A stretch of 64,000 bases of DNA from Galerina marginata (taxonomy: Eukaryota > Basidiomycota > Agaricomycetes > Agaricales > Galerinaceae), in NCBI GenBank assembly GCA_023014335.1, contig JAECYW010000022.1, positions 992,001 to 1,056,000 of the forward strand. Reading direction: 5' to 3'. The notes under the pieces were generated by a model. It did no database searches, was not told the DNA's origin, and was given only the letters and a program-made list of their open reading frames with translations. The position numbers were made by a program, and so were the translations under genes. This document shows, in pieces, positions 17,064 through 24,116 of the stretch. Position 1 is the first letter of the stretch. The number at the start of each line of letters is the position of its first letter.

Positions 17064-18666
17064 ATGGCGAAAGCCTTCCCAATCGACGCCGCACAAGTAG
17101 TCGCTCTCTTCATGGAAAGCGTCTTTTACGGGTAAGCCTCTTCCCTTCCCTCCCCCCCACGAACGCTTATCAAACCCTTTCTGAATCCCAGCAAGCCCTC
17201 CCACCTCACCTCTACATTTCCACTAACCCCCACCTCTCATCCAGGAATATACCTAGTCTCATTCTTCACCTCCCTCCGCGTCCTCCTCTGGTCACCCTCA
17301 GAAGGCCGATTCAAACCCCCCTCCCTCATCAACAAGAAAATGCTCTCCGCCGCTCTCCTAATGCTCCTCTTCGCGTCGATGGATGTGGCTTTTCATCTGC
17401 GGCATAACCTCGAAGCGTTCGTGTATTTCAATGGCGATCCTGTTGAGGACTTTGAGAGGACGGCTAATTGGATAAATGTTATGAAGATGGGGTGTTATGT
17501 TGCTCAGACGTTTGTGGGGGATAGTATTCTGGTGCGCGTTTCTCCTCTCCGTATCGTCTGAGGGATATATTTATCATTATTTCTGCGGCTCAGCTCTTCC
17601 GATGTTGGATCGTATACGACCGAAGTTGGCTCGTAGTCTCCCTCCCAATCGTCTTATGGCTAGGCACATCAGGCAAGTCCTTCCCTCCCTCACCCTCACC
17701 CTCACCCTCACCCATCCCTCATCTTCCGTTCTAAAAAAAAACCCACTAGCCTGCGGAGCGATCACGATCTACGCCGAAGCAACCCTCAACACCTCCTCCG
17801 GAAAAACCAAGATGCTCAACTCATCCACCCTCCTACCCTTCATCACCAGCATGCTGTGCCTCACACTCGCCACCAACTTTATCACTACCTGTAAGTACCG
17901 TACTTCCCGCTTTCTCTTTCTCTACGTCTGAATCATCACGCCACTTACCACTTACCACTTAACTCATTAACACTCCCGACCCGACCTGAATCTAGCCCTC
18001 GTCGTACACCGCATATGGACGATCCGCAACTCCATCAAACGCAGTTCAGCGCTCATCTCGCCCTCAAGCTCCCGCCTCACCAACGTGCTCGTCGTCCTCA
18101 TCGAGTCCGGGCTGATGTATACATTCTCCATCATAATCCTGTTCGGGGTGTACATGGCGTCTAATAACGCCCAGTATGGTGTCTCCAACGCGGTATGTCC
18201 AAGTATTCTCCATTCCATCCCATCTGCAGAACTCCTGATTCTTTCTGCTTCTGCTTCCTAGGTCGTCCAAATCATCGTAAGTGCATCATCTCTTATCTAC
18301 TCTCCCAATTTCAAGTCGTCCGAGACATCCGCTCATAATCCTTCCACCTGGACCCTCAAACAGGGTATCACATTTAACCTAATCATCATAAGCGTCGACC
18401 GCGGAGAAGCGACGCAGCCCCCCTCTCCCTCCCCCTCCCCCTCCCCCTCCCACTCCCGTGGAGCGCGCTCAAGAATAAGCCAGCACGAATCCCAAAGAAA
18501 TAATCCTCCGCCAGTGCACTTGATCAACCTCCAAACGAGCGTGGCTAGGTTCCCTGACCCGACGACTCGCGATCGGACGCCTGTGAAGTCTGGGTCTGGG
18601 TCTGAGCATGGGTTGGATGTTGGGGATTTACGCGTACGGACCGAGCGGGATTGGAAGCTTCGTTAG
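17064..18666 (+). CDS. Seven-helix membrane protein, Agaricomycete family (copy 1)
   Basis: Uncharacterised integral membrane protein with seven predicted helices: around ALFMESVFYG, AALLMLLFASMDVAF, YVAQTFVGDSILL, WLVVSLPIVLWLG, ITSMLCLTLATNFI, VLIESGLMYTFSIIILFG and IIGITFNLIIISV; the soluble C-tail is Ser/Pro/Arg-rich. Exons 17064-17130, 17245-17531, 17594-17672, 17750-17890, 17996-18192, 18264-18278 (15 nt), 18364-18666 give 362 aa. Exons 1 and 2 join in frame only if 17131-17244 is a twin intron (see separate entry). Intron 17673-17749 begins with GC (GCAAGT). The paralogue at 20352-21748 shares all splice positions. Such proteins are numerous in mushrooms; function is unknown. Next to P450 and GMC genes it could be a sensor or transporter, but there is no direct evidence. 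Confidence 0.82.
17131..17244 (+). other. Predicted twin intron (stwintron) in membrane protein 1
   Basis: A single GT-AG intron here puts the next exon in the wrong frame. If the internal intron 17132-17191 (GTAAGCC...CCCAG, 60 nt) is removed first, the leftover G17131 joins CAAGCC to create a GC-type donor (GCAAGC) for an external intron of 54 nt ending at 17244. It has a good branch site (CACTAAC). The codon then closes as G|GA and gives FYGIYLVSFF, the expected family sequence. The paralogue has the same arrangement at 20422-20545. Confidence 0.6.
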
Positions 18667-20351
18667 TGGTTATGGTTATGTTGGCAGATTGGCATATTTG
18701 GTTTTTGGTTTTTTGGTTTCTTTCGGTCGAATTTAATTGGAGCCTGGAGGAGTGTAAGTGTCGATTGCATGGAAATTCACATTCTAAAGGCCTAGATACT
18801 CTCTTTACCCTAGTCACCGAAATAATGCAATCGTGACTCCTGAGTTCTCCTAATCTAAACGCGTGCTCTGAGTCCTGTTCACTACTGGGGTCGAATTATT
18901 TTGACGGGGGTCAAAAGGTCATGGTAAGTCGTTTTGCTTTTGACCGTACATTTTGCCATGGGGTCTTCCCCTAAATTCCGACGGCAAAATGACTTGACAA
19001 AATCCAAGCGATGTGACTCGTACTTTGACCACTGGCAATATTTTCCCACCTCAGTAGTGGTTGATAATTGATGGTCATCCAAATCATTCATCTACCAGTT
19101 GCAAGTTATGGATACGTTGATAATCCTTCCGTCCTCAACCAGGACATCACGTTTAACCCGCTCAAGCAGGAATCTCAAAGAAATAGTCCTCTCCACTTGA
19201 ATAACATTCAAACGAGTGTAGCTAGGTTTCCCGACCCGACGACTCGTACGCCTGCAAAGTTTGAGTCGGGCTTACATTCTAAGGGCATAGATATCCTCGC
19301 CGCTCGGTGTCCTAGTCATCGAAAGAACGAATCACTGGGACTCCTGAGTCGCCTAATTTAAACGCGGGCTCTGAGGTCTGTTGACAAGGGTCATTGAGGA
19401 AATTTATCTTCAGGGTCGACGAGGCTCTTTGAATTGACCTATTATCATGTCTTCATTGACCGTCGGTATGAGTCTGGTGTCTGAAATTCACCACACGAGC
19501 ACGACTGGAAGCTTCGTTAATGGTGAAGTAGACCAGTTAGATCTAATTTTTGATCCTTTAGGTTTCTGTCGTTTCTTAGGTTAAGCACTGTAGGCGTTGA
19601 TAGTACTGGTATTTAATCCTGCTGGATTCATAGGCATATAATTTACTTTCTAATGGAAAAAGCACCTGCAATCGAAAGAATGGAATCACTGGGACTCCTA
19701 AGTCGCCTAATTTAACGGCGGTCTTCGAGTTCTGTCGATAAAGAATTGTAGAGGACCTTTACCTTCATGGTGGATGAGATGAGCTTTGAATTGACCTGTT
19801 ATCGTCTTTATTGACCAGCCATCGAGCGGGTAACACGATCAATCGAGTGTCTGAGGCGCAAGTCTATTTTTGGTTGGCACGCCAACCACGTGTCGACGTA
19901 CCCCTTGAATGATCGTCGATCGACGCTTGCCTAATTCGTTATCATCATGAGAACGATAAAAATTATAAAATGAAAAACGGGGTGCAGAAATCCACCTTCT
20001 ATCTACCTATCTATTTGAACAAGCTCGTACTGTATTGCGCTTCTTTTTATATGGCTGGGGAGAGGGGCCTGGGGAATATCAAGCGCTCATTTGGTTAATC
20101 GCGGCGCGTGGCTCGGCATGCTGTTAAAATGCCGGATATAACTTGAACTGTGTCATTGCAACTCCAACTTCAGATCTGCGACATTCCACTGAATGAGTTC
20201 AAGTTCTACAATACTTGATCCCTGAAAAATCGATGCCTGCGACGCGCTTGCCCATGCTCCATTTTGCACTTGCATTTCGCACAGCCCGAATCGGCTTCGC
20301 TTACTTATAGGATCGCAAACGTTAGGACCGTCGTCGTAGATTTCAGCAGGC
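18667..20351. repeat. Spacer with tandem decayed 3' flanks of the membrane-protein gene
   Basis: Three related blocks at about 18750-18860, 19270-19385 and 19640-19740 (each containing CTGGGACTCCT-like or GACTCCTGAG-like text and an AATTTAA end) repeat the gene's 3' flank. Between them lies a coding remnant (19065-19365). The 300 bp before 20352 resembles the promoter region of membrane protein 1. So this spacer is the scar of at least one further tandem duplicate. Confidence 0.6.
19065..19365 (+). pseudogene. Remnant of a third membrane-protein copy (last exons)
   Basis: The translation contains VIQII, then DITFNPLKQESQRN and LNNIQTSVARFPDPTTRTP, matching the last two exons of membrane protein 1 (VVQII, GITFNLIII and INLQTSVARFPDPTTRD). 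Everything upstream of the 15-nt exon equivalent is missing, and the membrane helix in the last exon is lost. It lies between the two intact genes in the same orientation. Confidence 0.75.
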
Positions 20352-21748
20352 ATGGGGCAAGGTTCCTTCCCAATCGACGCAGCCCAAATAGTCGGGCTCT
20401 TCATAGAAAGCGTCTTTTACGGGTAAGCCTCGTCTTTGTAACACGCGAATGCTTAGCGCTTATCCTCGAATGTGGACTTTCAGCAAGCTCTCGATGCTTA
20501 CAGGCTCGAAGTATCATTCTCTCTGACCGCTTGATTGTCGTTTAGGAATGTACCTCATCTCGTTCTTCAACTGCATCCACGTACTGGTTTGGTCGAACAG
20601 GTGGTTTAAACCACGACACAACATAAAGAAGGCGATGTTGCTCGCGGCTCTTCTGATGCTTATCTTTGCATCGATGGATGTAGCCTTCCATCTGCGACAT
20701 GTCCTCGAAGCCTTTATTTATTTCAATAGCGACCCTATCAAAACATTCGACAGAACATCTAACTGGATCAATGTCATGAAGATGGGTTGTTTTGTCGCTC
20801 AGACATTCGTCGGGGACAGCATCCTGGCGCGTATTTTCCCTTCCATCGTCCAGTAGAACTCATGTGAATATTATCCTTCGACACCCCAGATCTATCGGTG
20901 CTGGATTGTGTATGACCGAAATTGGCTTGTTGTCGCGTTACCGATTTTTTTGTGGCTGGGCACAACAGGCAAGCTGATTTCCTAAATTTGTATTTTTCTA
21001 AGAACGTCGTCAGCCTGTGGAGTGGTGACAATTCACGCCGAAGCCACTCTGCACCATGAGTCTGGGAAGCTGCTCAATTCTCCGACACTCGTGCCATTCA
21101 TCACAAGTATGCTGTGCCTCACTCTTGCCACCAACGTTATCACGACCTGTATGTGCATCGGCTGCAATGTGAGGTCATGCAACGTAACTCACCCCCTCCT
21201 AGCCCTCATCGTTCACCGTATTTGGAGGATTCGTAATTCGTTAAAGCGCCGTTCGGTCGTCGTCGTCTCGACCTCTCGCCTCACCAGCGTAGTCCTGGTC
21301 CTTATCGAATCGGGTCTGATGTACACCCTTTCGATTGTCATTTTGTTTGTGTTGTATATGTCATCCAACAACGCCCAATACGGTGTCTCCAACGCGGTAT
21401 GTTATTTTTCGTTCCGGTTCAAAATTTCCTGACACTTGTCCATCTGACGGCTTCAAGATCGTACAAATCATCGTAAGTGTATCATTTACCAGGTAAGAAT
21501 TCTAGTAATGACAATCCTTCCCTGCCTAATAATAGGGTATCACTTTCAACCTGATCATCGTGAGCGTGGGCCGCGGTGATGCTACTATTTCTCCTCCCTC
21601 AGGTTCATGTACCAGCGAACGGGAACACCACAAGGACGCCCCGCCACTGCACTTGATCAATATTCAGACCAGCGTTTCCACATTCCACGACCCAACGACG
21701 CCGGTAAAGTCTGGAACGGATGTAGAAAATGCATCGACAAGATCTTAG
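20352..21748 (+). CDS. Seven-helix membrane protein, Agaricomycete family (copy 2)
   Basis: Paralogue of the gene at 17064-18666 with the same seven helices and exon plan: 20352-20421, 20546-20826, 20890-20968, 21014-21148, 21203-21396, 21458-21472 (15 nt), 21536-21748; 328 aa. The C-terminal tail is shorter and lacks the Ser-Pro repeats. The exon 1/2 junction again needs a twin intron. Two further introns have GC donors: 20827 (GCGCGT, where copy 1 has GTGCGC) and 20969 (GCAAGC). If the first of these no longer splices, the protein would be cut short in helix three, so this copy might be weakly expressed. Function unknown. Confidence 0.78.
20422..20545 (+). other. Predicted twin intron (stwintron) in membrane protein 2
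   Basis: Internal intron 20423-20483 (GTAAGCC...TTTCAG, 61 nt) sits one base inside the external intron. After its removal G20422 meets CAAGCT to form a GC donor, and the external intron (63 nt after removal) ends at 20545 with a CTGAC branch site. The exon join G|GA gives GMYLISFF in frame. Same logic and position as in copy 1 although intron sequences have diverged. Confidence 0.6.
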
Positions 21749-22135: not shown

Positions 22136-24116
22136 CTACTTGACGAAACCGCGTTCCTCGTAACCTTCGTCAATTTGGATATCATTTCCGAACTGGTCTT
22201 TGGCTTTCTCGATGTTGAAGGTCGCCAATATCGATGCGATTGTAAGCCACACCTATATCCATGTCAGTCAAAGCAGATAAATTGCGCCTTTGCTAAGAAA
22301 ATGACTTGCAGTTGAACTGGCAAGATGTCTGCCTGGACAAACCCTACGACCAAAGTTCGGGCACTCAAATACCATCCTCTAAGATGGAACTTACCTTCTT
22401 CCAAATCCAAAAGCTGTGATTCTACTGTCATCGTTCAGCTTTCCATTCTGATCGAGGAATCTCTCGGGTTTAAACTCTAGAGGTGCTTCGTACACCTCGG
22501 GGTCGCGCGTCATTGCCCTTGAAACCTTTAATTTCGAGAGAAAAGGCGTAATTGTATCGTGCATACCAAATATTACCGAAAATATTGGTACCTGACAATG
22601 GAGCATTCTAGGTCTACTTAACTGGGAATAGAGAATGTACTAACCTTTGGGTATGAAATAGCCTTTGTAGTAATCGTCCTCGGTGGAACGATGTGGAACA
22701 CTGAGTACGGCGGGAGGGTTCCACCGCATTACTTCGTGGTATATCGCCTCAATGTATGGCAGAGAACTTCGATCTGCGAATTCCGGGAGACGATCCGACC
22801 CAATAACCATGTCGATTTCCTTTTGGGCTTTTGTCTGGATCTCTGGGTTAACGGCCATGAGGAAGAAGAAGGTTGCGGTTGCGGCGTTGGTCTGGTTAAT
22901 GAATAAGAAATTGGTCGAAACTCAACGGATAATGTTTTTACTGTATCGGAACCGGCTACAATGGAACTGTTAAGTCGGGGATATATCATGAGACAAAAAA
23001 TCTCTTACCAGTGTGGATTGTATAAGCCACATCTTTTATGACCTTCTCCTCTTGCTCCGAAGCTCCGAAGCTATTTTTTTTCTCCAAGAAGGTGGAAACA
23101 AGAGAAGGAACAGCGGTCCCCTCACTCTAATAATTCAGCTACAATCAGTGGTATTGACCTGACAACGCAGATAATACTCACGACGCGTTTCTTGACGAAT
23201 TCCATTGGTATTCTCTGCATCTCTTCTGTGAACCCACGAACAATTTCCGCCGTCTTACGTGAAGATGCGCCAGGAAACCAAGCTGGTATGTGCGCAAGTG
23301 CCGGAATGATGTCAATGAAATTCGCACCAGGTAAAACCAGACGATTGCCGATATTAGCGCTGTTGTCTGCAGCAGAAATACATGGATCGTCGATGGATTC
23401 AACCTCGTATCCGTACATCATCTGCATGGAGATGGCTATAGACAACCTGCACAAATGAAAACTAGTCAAATCCGTGTGGACGTGGAAAGGAATGATTCCC
23501 AACTTTTTGTTATGTTTCTCAAAAATTTCGGGGGTTTGAAGCAGTCCTTTGAGCATTTCGTGAACCTTCCTGAGCTGAAGGGGATAGTACTGCTGTATGT
23601 TTTGGAGATGAAAATTCTGATGGTAGACCTTTCTGTGCCATCGCCATTCATCACCATATGGCAGAAGACCAGTGTGGATCGACCATCCCATCCTTAAAGA
23701 GAGATTAGACACGCGCGCTTTCCTACTAGATAGTTGCGAATTTACAATTTGATTATCGGTATGGCCGGTCGATCAGAGTATATTCTCGCTCTATGTTCCA
23801 ACAGTTCATCCGCGTCCTCGCGCTTGTTCAGGACAAGAACTTTATTACCCAAGGCATTAGCGTACAAAATGTCACCTTCAGTTGGCATCGGGATCAGTAA
23901 AGGTATTATTGATCAATTGAACGTACTTTTGTACTCATCGCCCCATCGCATATACCCCTCATGGGCATTCTTCTGGGGAACATCAAACAGATTTCCAATG
24001 AATGGCTTGGGTAGCGGCCCAGGGGGGTACGGTGCATTCCGTCTCCTTTTGCCCAAAATATCTGACGTTTTCTTTGCCAACCACGCAAGAAAAAAGAGAA
24101 TAACGGTCGTCAGCAT
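22136..24116 (-). CDS. Cytochrome P450 monooxygenase (copy 1)
   Basis: Membrane-anchored heme-thiolate monooxygenase of the ER, 481 aa, of the type that decorates secondary metabolites or degrades xenobiotics. Exons on the minus strand: 23927-24116, 23746-23875, 23504-23692, 23182-23446, 23009-23120, 22942-22955 (14 nt), 22645-22891, 22567-22591 (25 nt), 22395-22517, 22310-22343, 22136-22252. The N-terminal anchor is MLTTVILFFLAWLAKK, followed by the proline hinge YPPGPLPKP; the I-helix is AGSDTT (built across the 14-nt exon), the K-helix EVMR, and the heme loop FGFGRRVCPGRH with Cys434. The intron at 22309 uses a GC donor (GCAAGT) where copy 2 has GT. An ATG 48 nt upstream is in frame but lies next to the TATA-like box and is lost in copy 2, so I start at 24116. 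Natural substrate unknown. Confidence 0.88.

Follow-up and report, generated by a model that had tools for sequence, protein, structure and literature searches.

A candidate stwintron of the ambiguous [D1,2]/[A2,3] kind in paralogous membrane-protein genes of the mushroom Galerina marginata

Stwintrons show that introns can originate inside other introns, and they force splicing to proceed stepwise. The [D1,2] stwintrons of Pezizomycotina have been described in the lipS gene of Aspergillus and, in more than 1500 instances, in Hypoxylaceae (passages of PMC5639578 and PMC9024468). In these elements, the first G of the 3′ donor stands before the 5′ intron, the two introns are spliced consecutively, use of the outermost sites in one step leads to a +1 shift, and automated annotation misses the element; the locus presented here is predicted to resemble them in all four respects. 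It differs in residing in a basidiomycete, in having a GC external donor in two of its three copies, and in that a DNA search revealed no similar copies elsewhere. Alternatively spliced [D1,2]/[A2,3] stwintrons are reported for the alternative oxidase gene of Helminthosporium solani and for a multidrug efflux pump gene (passages of PMC5639578). As in our locus, exon 2 of the H. solani type starts with G, either intron may leave first and the mRNA is the same; in contrast, our locus concerns another gene in another phylum and has a GC donor in copies A and B. By the geometry outlined in passages of PMC5639578 and PMC9024468, an exon 1 ending with G followed by an exon 2 starting with G can be spliced as either [D1,2] or [A2,3]. 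A [D5,6] stwintron of a reticulon-like gene is likewise conserved at one gene position, yet its donor is split elsewhere; no structural homologue of that gene was traced in Basidiomycota, as stated in a passage of PMC6616335. We found no basidiomycete stwintron in the literature searched, which mostly comprised papers outside subscription, and the reports found were all on ascomycetes; an earlier note on this DNA had called stwintrons mainly an ascomycete finding. A term search of PMC9024468, PMC12403724, PMC7138796 and PMC8469720 did not return the word “Basidiomycota.”

The window analyzed here is a 64,000-nt stretch of G. marginata contig JAECYW010000022.1, from an assembly of 69.3 Mb in 43 contigs. 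It contains two neighboring paralogous membrane-protein genes of seven exons each, copy A (17064–18666) and copy B (20352–21748), for which the earlier note had proposed a stwintron between exons 1 and 2. We found a third close paralogue, copy C, on contig C40 of the same assembly; its protein is 74% identical to that of A and 73% to that of B. The coordinates and lengths given earlier for the introns of A and B hold (Table 1): the gap between exons 1 and 2 (113 nt in A and 123 nt in B) is accounted for by two introns with one G in common. Removal of both yields an identical glycine codon and the sequence FYG-[IM]YL[VI]SFF in all three copies, and leaves reading frames open to the stop codon of 362 (A), 328 (B), and 334 (C) residues. 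The introns of each gene sum up to 514, 410, and 416 nt, respectively.

Table 1. Predicted exons and introns of copies A and B (window coordinates) and the twin introns of copy C.
Feature	Location	Strand	Remarks
Copy A exon 1	17064–17131	+	ATG…TTT TAC GG; G17131 ends the exon or, alternatively, opens the external donor
Copy A 5′ intron, 60 nt	17132–17191	+	GTAAGC…CCCAG; internal in the [D1,2] reading
Copy A 3′ intron, 54 nt	17191–17244	+	GCAAGC…TCCAG; external in the [D1,2] reading; G17191 common to 5′ intron
Copy A exon 2	17245–17531	+	starts GA ATA TAC (IYLVSFF…)
Copy A exons 3–7	17594–17672, 17750–17890, 17996–18192, 18262–18276, 18364–18666	+	intron 3 donor GC
Copy A intron 3	17673–17749		GC donor GCAAGT; GT in copy C
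Copy B exon 1	20352–20422	+	ends …TTT TAC GG
Copy B 5′ intron, 61 nt	20423–20483	+	GTAAGC…TTTCAG
Copy B 3′ intron, 63 nt	20483–20545	+	GCAAGC…GTTTAG; G20483 common to 5′ intron
Copy B exon 2	20546–20826	+	starts GA ATG TAC (MYLISFF…)
Copy B exons 3–7	20890–20968, 21014–21148, 21203–21396, 21458–21472, 21536–21748	+	introns 2 and 3 donors GC
Copy B intron 2	20827–20889		GC donor GCGCGT; GT in copy C
Copy B intron 3	20969–21013		GC donor GCAAGC; GT in copy C
Copy C twin introns	contig C40		GTAAGT…TTTCAG, 63 nt, overlapping GTAAGC…TATAG, 59 nt

In copy C, both introns are of the GT-AG type (GTAAGT…TTTCAG|TAAGC…CTAAC…TATAG|GAAT), and A and B depart from it in the second base of the 3′ donor, which is C instead of T. 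All three copies read G|GTAAG, which places one intron between bases 1 and 2 of the other intron's donor, the geometry of [D1,2] stwintrons. In addition, a G directly follows the last acceptor in each copy (exon 2 starts with GAATAT in A, GAATGT in B, and GAATTT in C). The 3′ introns carry branch-like sites (CTAAC, CTGAC, and CTAAC in A, B, and C) at 18, 19, and 19 nt from their ends; those of A and B are the clear external branch sites described earlier. Those of the 5′ introns are weak and include CTTAT at 21–30 nt from the end as well as CTGAA at 7 nt in A and CTAAA at 24 nt in C. The branch site is stronger in the 3′ introns, while in A and B the donor is stronger in the 5′ introns. When only the 5′ intron is removed, an in-frame stop remains in B and C, and 18 extra residues in A; removal of the 3′ intron alone brings an immediate stop in all three copies. 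A single-step splice between the outermost sites puts exon 2 out of frame, and removal of both introns restores the conserved frame.

In structure and predicted mature product, intron 1 is very probably a stwintron of the ambiguous [D1,2]/[A2,3] kind. Since exon 2 begins with G, either intron could leave first with identical mRNA as the outcome. On the 5′-first route, the last G of exon 1 would complete the GC donor (GT in C) of the 3′ intron; on the 3′-first route, the first G of exon 2 would complete the AG acceptor of the 5′ intron. Either route would lead in copy A to TTT TAC GGA ATA TAC (F Y G I Y), with the predicted mature junction TTTTACG|GAATATAC. The earlier description of an internal intron splitting the external donor therefore applies as one route, but the G of exon 2 allows the [A2,3] route equally. 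A halfway product or a one-step outer splice would result in a stop or a frameshift; in A alone, a halfway product could instead insert 18 residues into the first membrane helix. For A and B, we infer a bias toward 5′-first splicing, since joining to exon 1 would put a G in place of the A at position −1 of the GC donor, a change expected to strengthen its pairing with U1. The coexistence of GC and GT forms in the same genome would offer a natural way of testing if donor strength decides which intron leaves first.

About 1% of fungal introns are of the GC-AG type, a figure of Kupfer et al. (2004) cited in a passage of PMC7407476. The earlier note remarked that a GC external donor would be unusual, but GC donors are common in A and B. 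Among the seven donors of each gene, two are GC in A (the 3′ twin intron and intron 3), three in B (the 3′ twin intron and introns 2 and 3), and none in C, i.e., 5 of 14 in A and B together. The GC donor of the twin intron is thus part of a local tendency of these two genes. The 3′ introns of A and B (GCAAGC…AG) combine a GC donor with a strong remaining consensus, as do the fungal GC-AG introns treated in passages of PMC7407476, but here the donor overlaps another acceptor. According to a passage of PMC8469720, [D1,2] stwintrons occasionally begin with GGC, that is, with a GC donor of the internal intron; a GC external donor is not mentioned in the passages of that paper.

To weigh other ways of joining exons 1 and 2, we enumerated single GT/GC-AG introns of 40–160 nt and scored their products against homologue P0004. 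Open products numbered 11 in A, one in B (with a GC donor), and six in C; the earlier claim that exons 1 and 2 cannot be joined in frame by a single GT-AG intron thus holds for B in this range but is too strong for A. The best of them in A is the removal of the 5′ intron alone, which adds 18 residues (KPSHLTSTFPLTPTSHPG) inside the first helix, and the best in C adds four residues. The twin products reached 436 (A), 434 (B), and 490 (C), the highest scores among the enumerated single-intron and overlapping two-step solutions. Other frame-restoring splices, which by the earlier note would refute the stwintron if seen in reads, thus do exist as sequence solutions, but each of them fits P0004 less well than the twin product. 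We also tried a micro-exon between two non-overlapping introns of 35–160 nt and rejected it: this gave 62, 133, and 104 distinct open products in A, B, and C, the best of which scored 395, 417, and 478, below the twin values, with weak second donors. The same protein is given by two twin solutions in A, two in B, and three in C, where the alternatives are two weaker internal splits (one each in A and B). As AG followed by C or T is common in the middle of introns, the existence of a twin solution alone proves little.

More informative is the motif at the overlap. In 4000 dinucleotide shuffles per copy, with both halves required to be of normal size and the position usable, the strict motif YAG|YAAGY arose 0 (A), 9 (B), and 34 (C) times, and a relaxed motif 1, 88, and 103 times. 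YAG|YAAGC is retained at positions 60, 61, and 63 of the three copies. Similarity between intron cores was matched by 2 of 300 shuffles for A–B, 3 of 300 for B–C, and 59 of 300 for A–C; the cores align weakly or not at all between copies, and the motif has thus outlived most of the sequence around it. Conservation of the motif among A, B, and C counts as one ancestral event and not as three independent ones, and on this comparison the structure would be older than the duplications that gave rise to the three copies.

These figures bear on the rival that fares best, a single non-canonical GG…AG intron of 114–124 nt, in which GTAAG is recognized but cleavage takes place one base upstream, with no nested intron. 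It would give the same product and its length is plausible, copy A intron 4 being 105 nt long. Yet, it leaves unexplained why YAG|YAAGC recurs at 60, 61, and 63 (0, 9, and 34 of 4000 shuffles), why both halves are of near-normal intron length and why there is a second branch-like site, and we regard it as unlikely. The stwintron reading accommodates these features, and it draws additional support from the canonical GT-AG version in copy C, from codon divergence next to the junction and from annotation failures in relatives. The eight codons following the junction differ at first, second, and third positions by 0/1/7 between A and C, 1/1/7 between B and C, and 1/1/3 between A and B. This mostly third-position divergence indicates that they are coding and counts against gene models which delete them.

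A protein search yielded 198 homologues, the best 120 of which were classified at six junctions. Models of close relatives often fail at junction 1. Among 42 genome-annotated models of rank 1–60, junction 1 shows 19 indels, exon 1 is absent from 11 models and the other 12 are scored clean, so that 30 of 42 are abnormal, or 31 by eye, since P0057 was miscalled clean by the indel scan and is in fact broken; the same models have 1, 2, 9, 5, and 5 indels at junctions 2–6. A missing exon 1 may simply reflect a short first exon; a better gauge is the number of indels, found in 19 of the 31 models that include exon 1. Under a looser scan rule, which passed some late-starting models, the junction 1 counts were 19 indels, five truncations and 18 clean models. 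At rank 61–120, 54 genome-annotated models comprise four with indels, five without exon 1 and 45 clean; with 9 of 54 abnormal, the failure is concentrated in close relatives. Some of the close models scored clean may come from relatives without the structure or have better evidence behind them.

Homologues from short contigs (1.0–3.2 kb; sources jgi, lgn, and ena) behave differently. None of the six junctions carries an indel in the 18 of them at rank 1–60; junction 1 is crossed cleanly by 14, and four lack exon 1 by the rule used. Six more at rank 61–120 include five clean and one without exon 1. At the junction, all 19 short-contig proteins scored clean within rank 1–120 have YG and then I, M, or V. 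In 11 of the 18 (four of these 11 without exon 1), fewer than 410 bases are spare, too few for the 410–514 nt of introns found in A–C, and these 11 therefore look like cDNA. The short contigs as a group seem cDNA-like, although their sources are not stated to be transcriptomes.

The errors at junction 1 are not uniform among the models. Eight residues are lost in G. marginata, Cyclocybe aegerita, Pholiota conissans, and others, and 11 in three Crepidotus models, whereas insertions occur in Amanita, Volvariella, and Psilocybe cubensis. The short-contig protein P0045 reads FYGIFLITFF where the 82% identical Amanita rubescens model P0046 reads FYGQLRIRFGMFLITFF. In the models of Psilocybe cubensis (P0052) and Gymnopilus dilepis (P0025), FYG or LYG is followed by K, 16 residues and then [IV]YLV, the inserts having Lys at the start and Leu-Gly or Pro-Gly at the end. 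They may represent a retained 3′ intron (donor G|YAAG, acceptor YAG|G) of the form seen in A, GG[CT] AAG. As for G. marginata itself, the best matches to A, B, and C are P0022 (92% identity), P0013 (89%), and P0001 (99%), and at the junction these models are late-starting, partial, and deleted, respectively. Taken at the level of proteins, this pattern suggests that the stwintron is probably present in other Agaricales.

The relatives also help to judge the remaining rivals. Ordinary single GT-AG introns starting from the GTAAG donor would give products that differ per copy: A would keep the 18 residues, and C would be spliced as GTAAGT…ACTCAG (four residues gained) or GTAAGT…TTTTAG (eight lost). 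Such frames are open, and the deposited G. marginata model P0001 indeed has the 8-residue deletion. Nevertheless, B offers no GT-AG solution in the range tried and has an in-frame stop in its 3′ intron, the products are unlike between copies, the eight codons that P0001 lacks diverge in the manner of coding DNA, and 14 of 14 short-contig homologues of rank 1–60 that span the junction do so without insertion or deletion, all of which makes this rival very improbable. No likelier is a single intron whose donor lies within exon 1, 13 nt upstream (GCGTCT for A and B, GTGTGT for C), and which extends to the last acceptor, replacing SVFYG with R. It is open in all three copies, and the same form is seen in two deposited models, P0008 of Crucibulum laeve (FMERIFLV) and P0031 of Amanita thiersii (FMERVFLV); however, GCGTCT, with no G at +5, is a poor donor next to a strong GTAAG 13 nt downstream, the products score 394, 392, and 448, each falling short of the respective twin product by 42, and the YG before the junction is kept in 19 of 19 clean short-contig proteins of rank 1–120. 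Finally, a sequencing error or pseudogene, with a plain intron broken by a one-base error, could account for an out-of-frame junction in one copy, but the same anatomy in three copies on two contigs with unequal intron lengths, genes open to the stop throughout, and the broken, partial or late-starting models of the best G. marginata matches render it the least credible of all.

With the stwintron reading retained, we lean toward a wider interpretation, namely that this is an old stwintron occurring across much of Agaricales at a single site in helix 1 of a seven-helix protein family, the first conserved one in Basidiomycota, in which the GC donor of some copies would be improved by the first splicing step. 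If true, mushroom gene models would go wrong here for a systematic reason, and the phylum might contain many more elements of this type. A conserved mushroom case would carry the phenomenon beyond the ascomycetes into their sister phylum and account for a mistake that recurs in public gene models.

Within the genome, each of the three twin elements matched itself alone in a DNA search that skipped simple repeats and very frequent words; similar copies inserted elsewhere in genes, the mark of propagated (sister) stwintrons, were not detected by this search. Homologous DNA was not found in a virus collection either (60 pattern matches, none confirmed). Seven distant family loci (L004, L005, L006, L008, L028, L029, and L031) read through the junction site without an intron, so the twin-intron pair seems confined to one subfamily. 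These seven are the readable ones among 13 and include the nearly identical L028 and L029; L007 and L032–L035 were not resolved, and L030 repeats L008. Near-identical pairs lie across contigs, L028/L029 on C4 and C11 and L033/L034 on C17 and C27, as if both haplotypes had been assembled in places.

Regarding the protein, Pfam gave no match for copy C at E ≤ 0.001 and none better than E 0.071 for 14 homologues. The structure predicted for homologue P0003 has seven helices (mean pLDDT 62.1, pTM 0.56, moderate confidence), and in this model, with moderate confidence, the junction (residue 24) would fall in the middle of helix 1 (residues 10–38). Comparison of the model with the PDB produced no matches at E ≤ 0.001; the 50 fold matches listed are all GPCRs and weak, with yeast Ste2 (7ad3) having the top TM-scores among them (0.55/0.60). 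The label “GPCR-like” is only a lead at this point.

Several other features of the genes and their surroundings deserve mention. Intron 4 of copy A (17891–17995) measures 105 nt against 54 nt in B and 52 nt in C, and contains short CCACTTA-like tandem repeats. A 15-nt micro-exon encoding VVQII or IVQII lies between introns 5 and 6 in all three copies (18262–18276 in A, 21458–21472 in B), and is missing from some public models of relatives (P0025 and P0027). Downstream of copy B, minus-strand open frames at 22391–23772 resemble a cytochrome P450 gene. In the spacer between A and B, three stretches (19165–19191, 19185–19243, and 19496–19524; repeats D3, D10, and D11) resemble the last exon of A, and a 59-nt stretch is duplicated (19329–19387 with 19683–19741; repeat D6); these repeats are perhaps remnants of another tandem copy.
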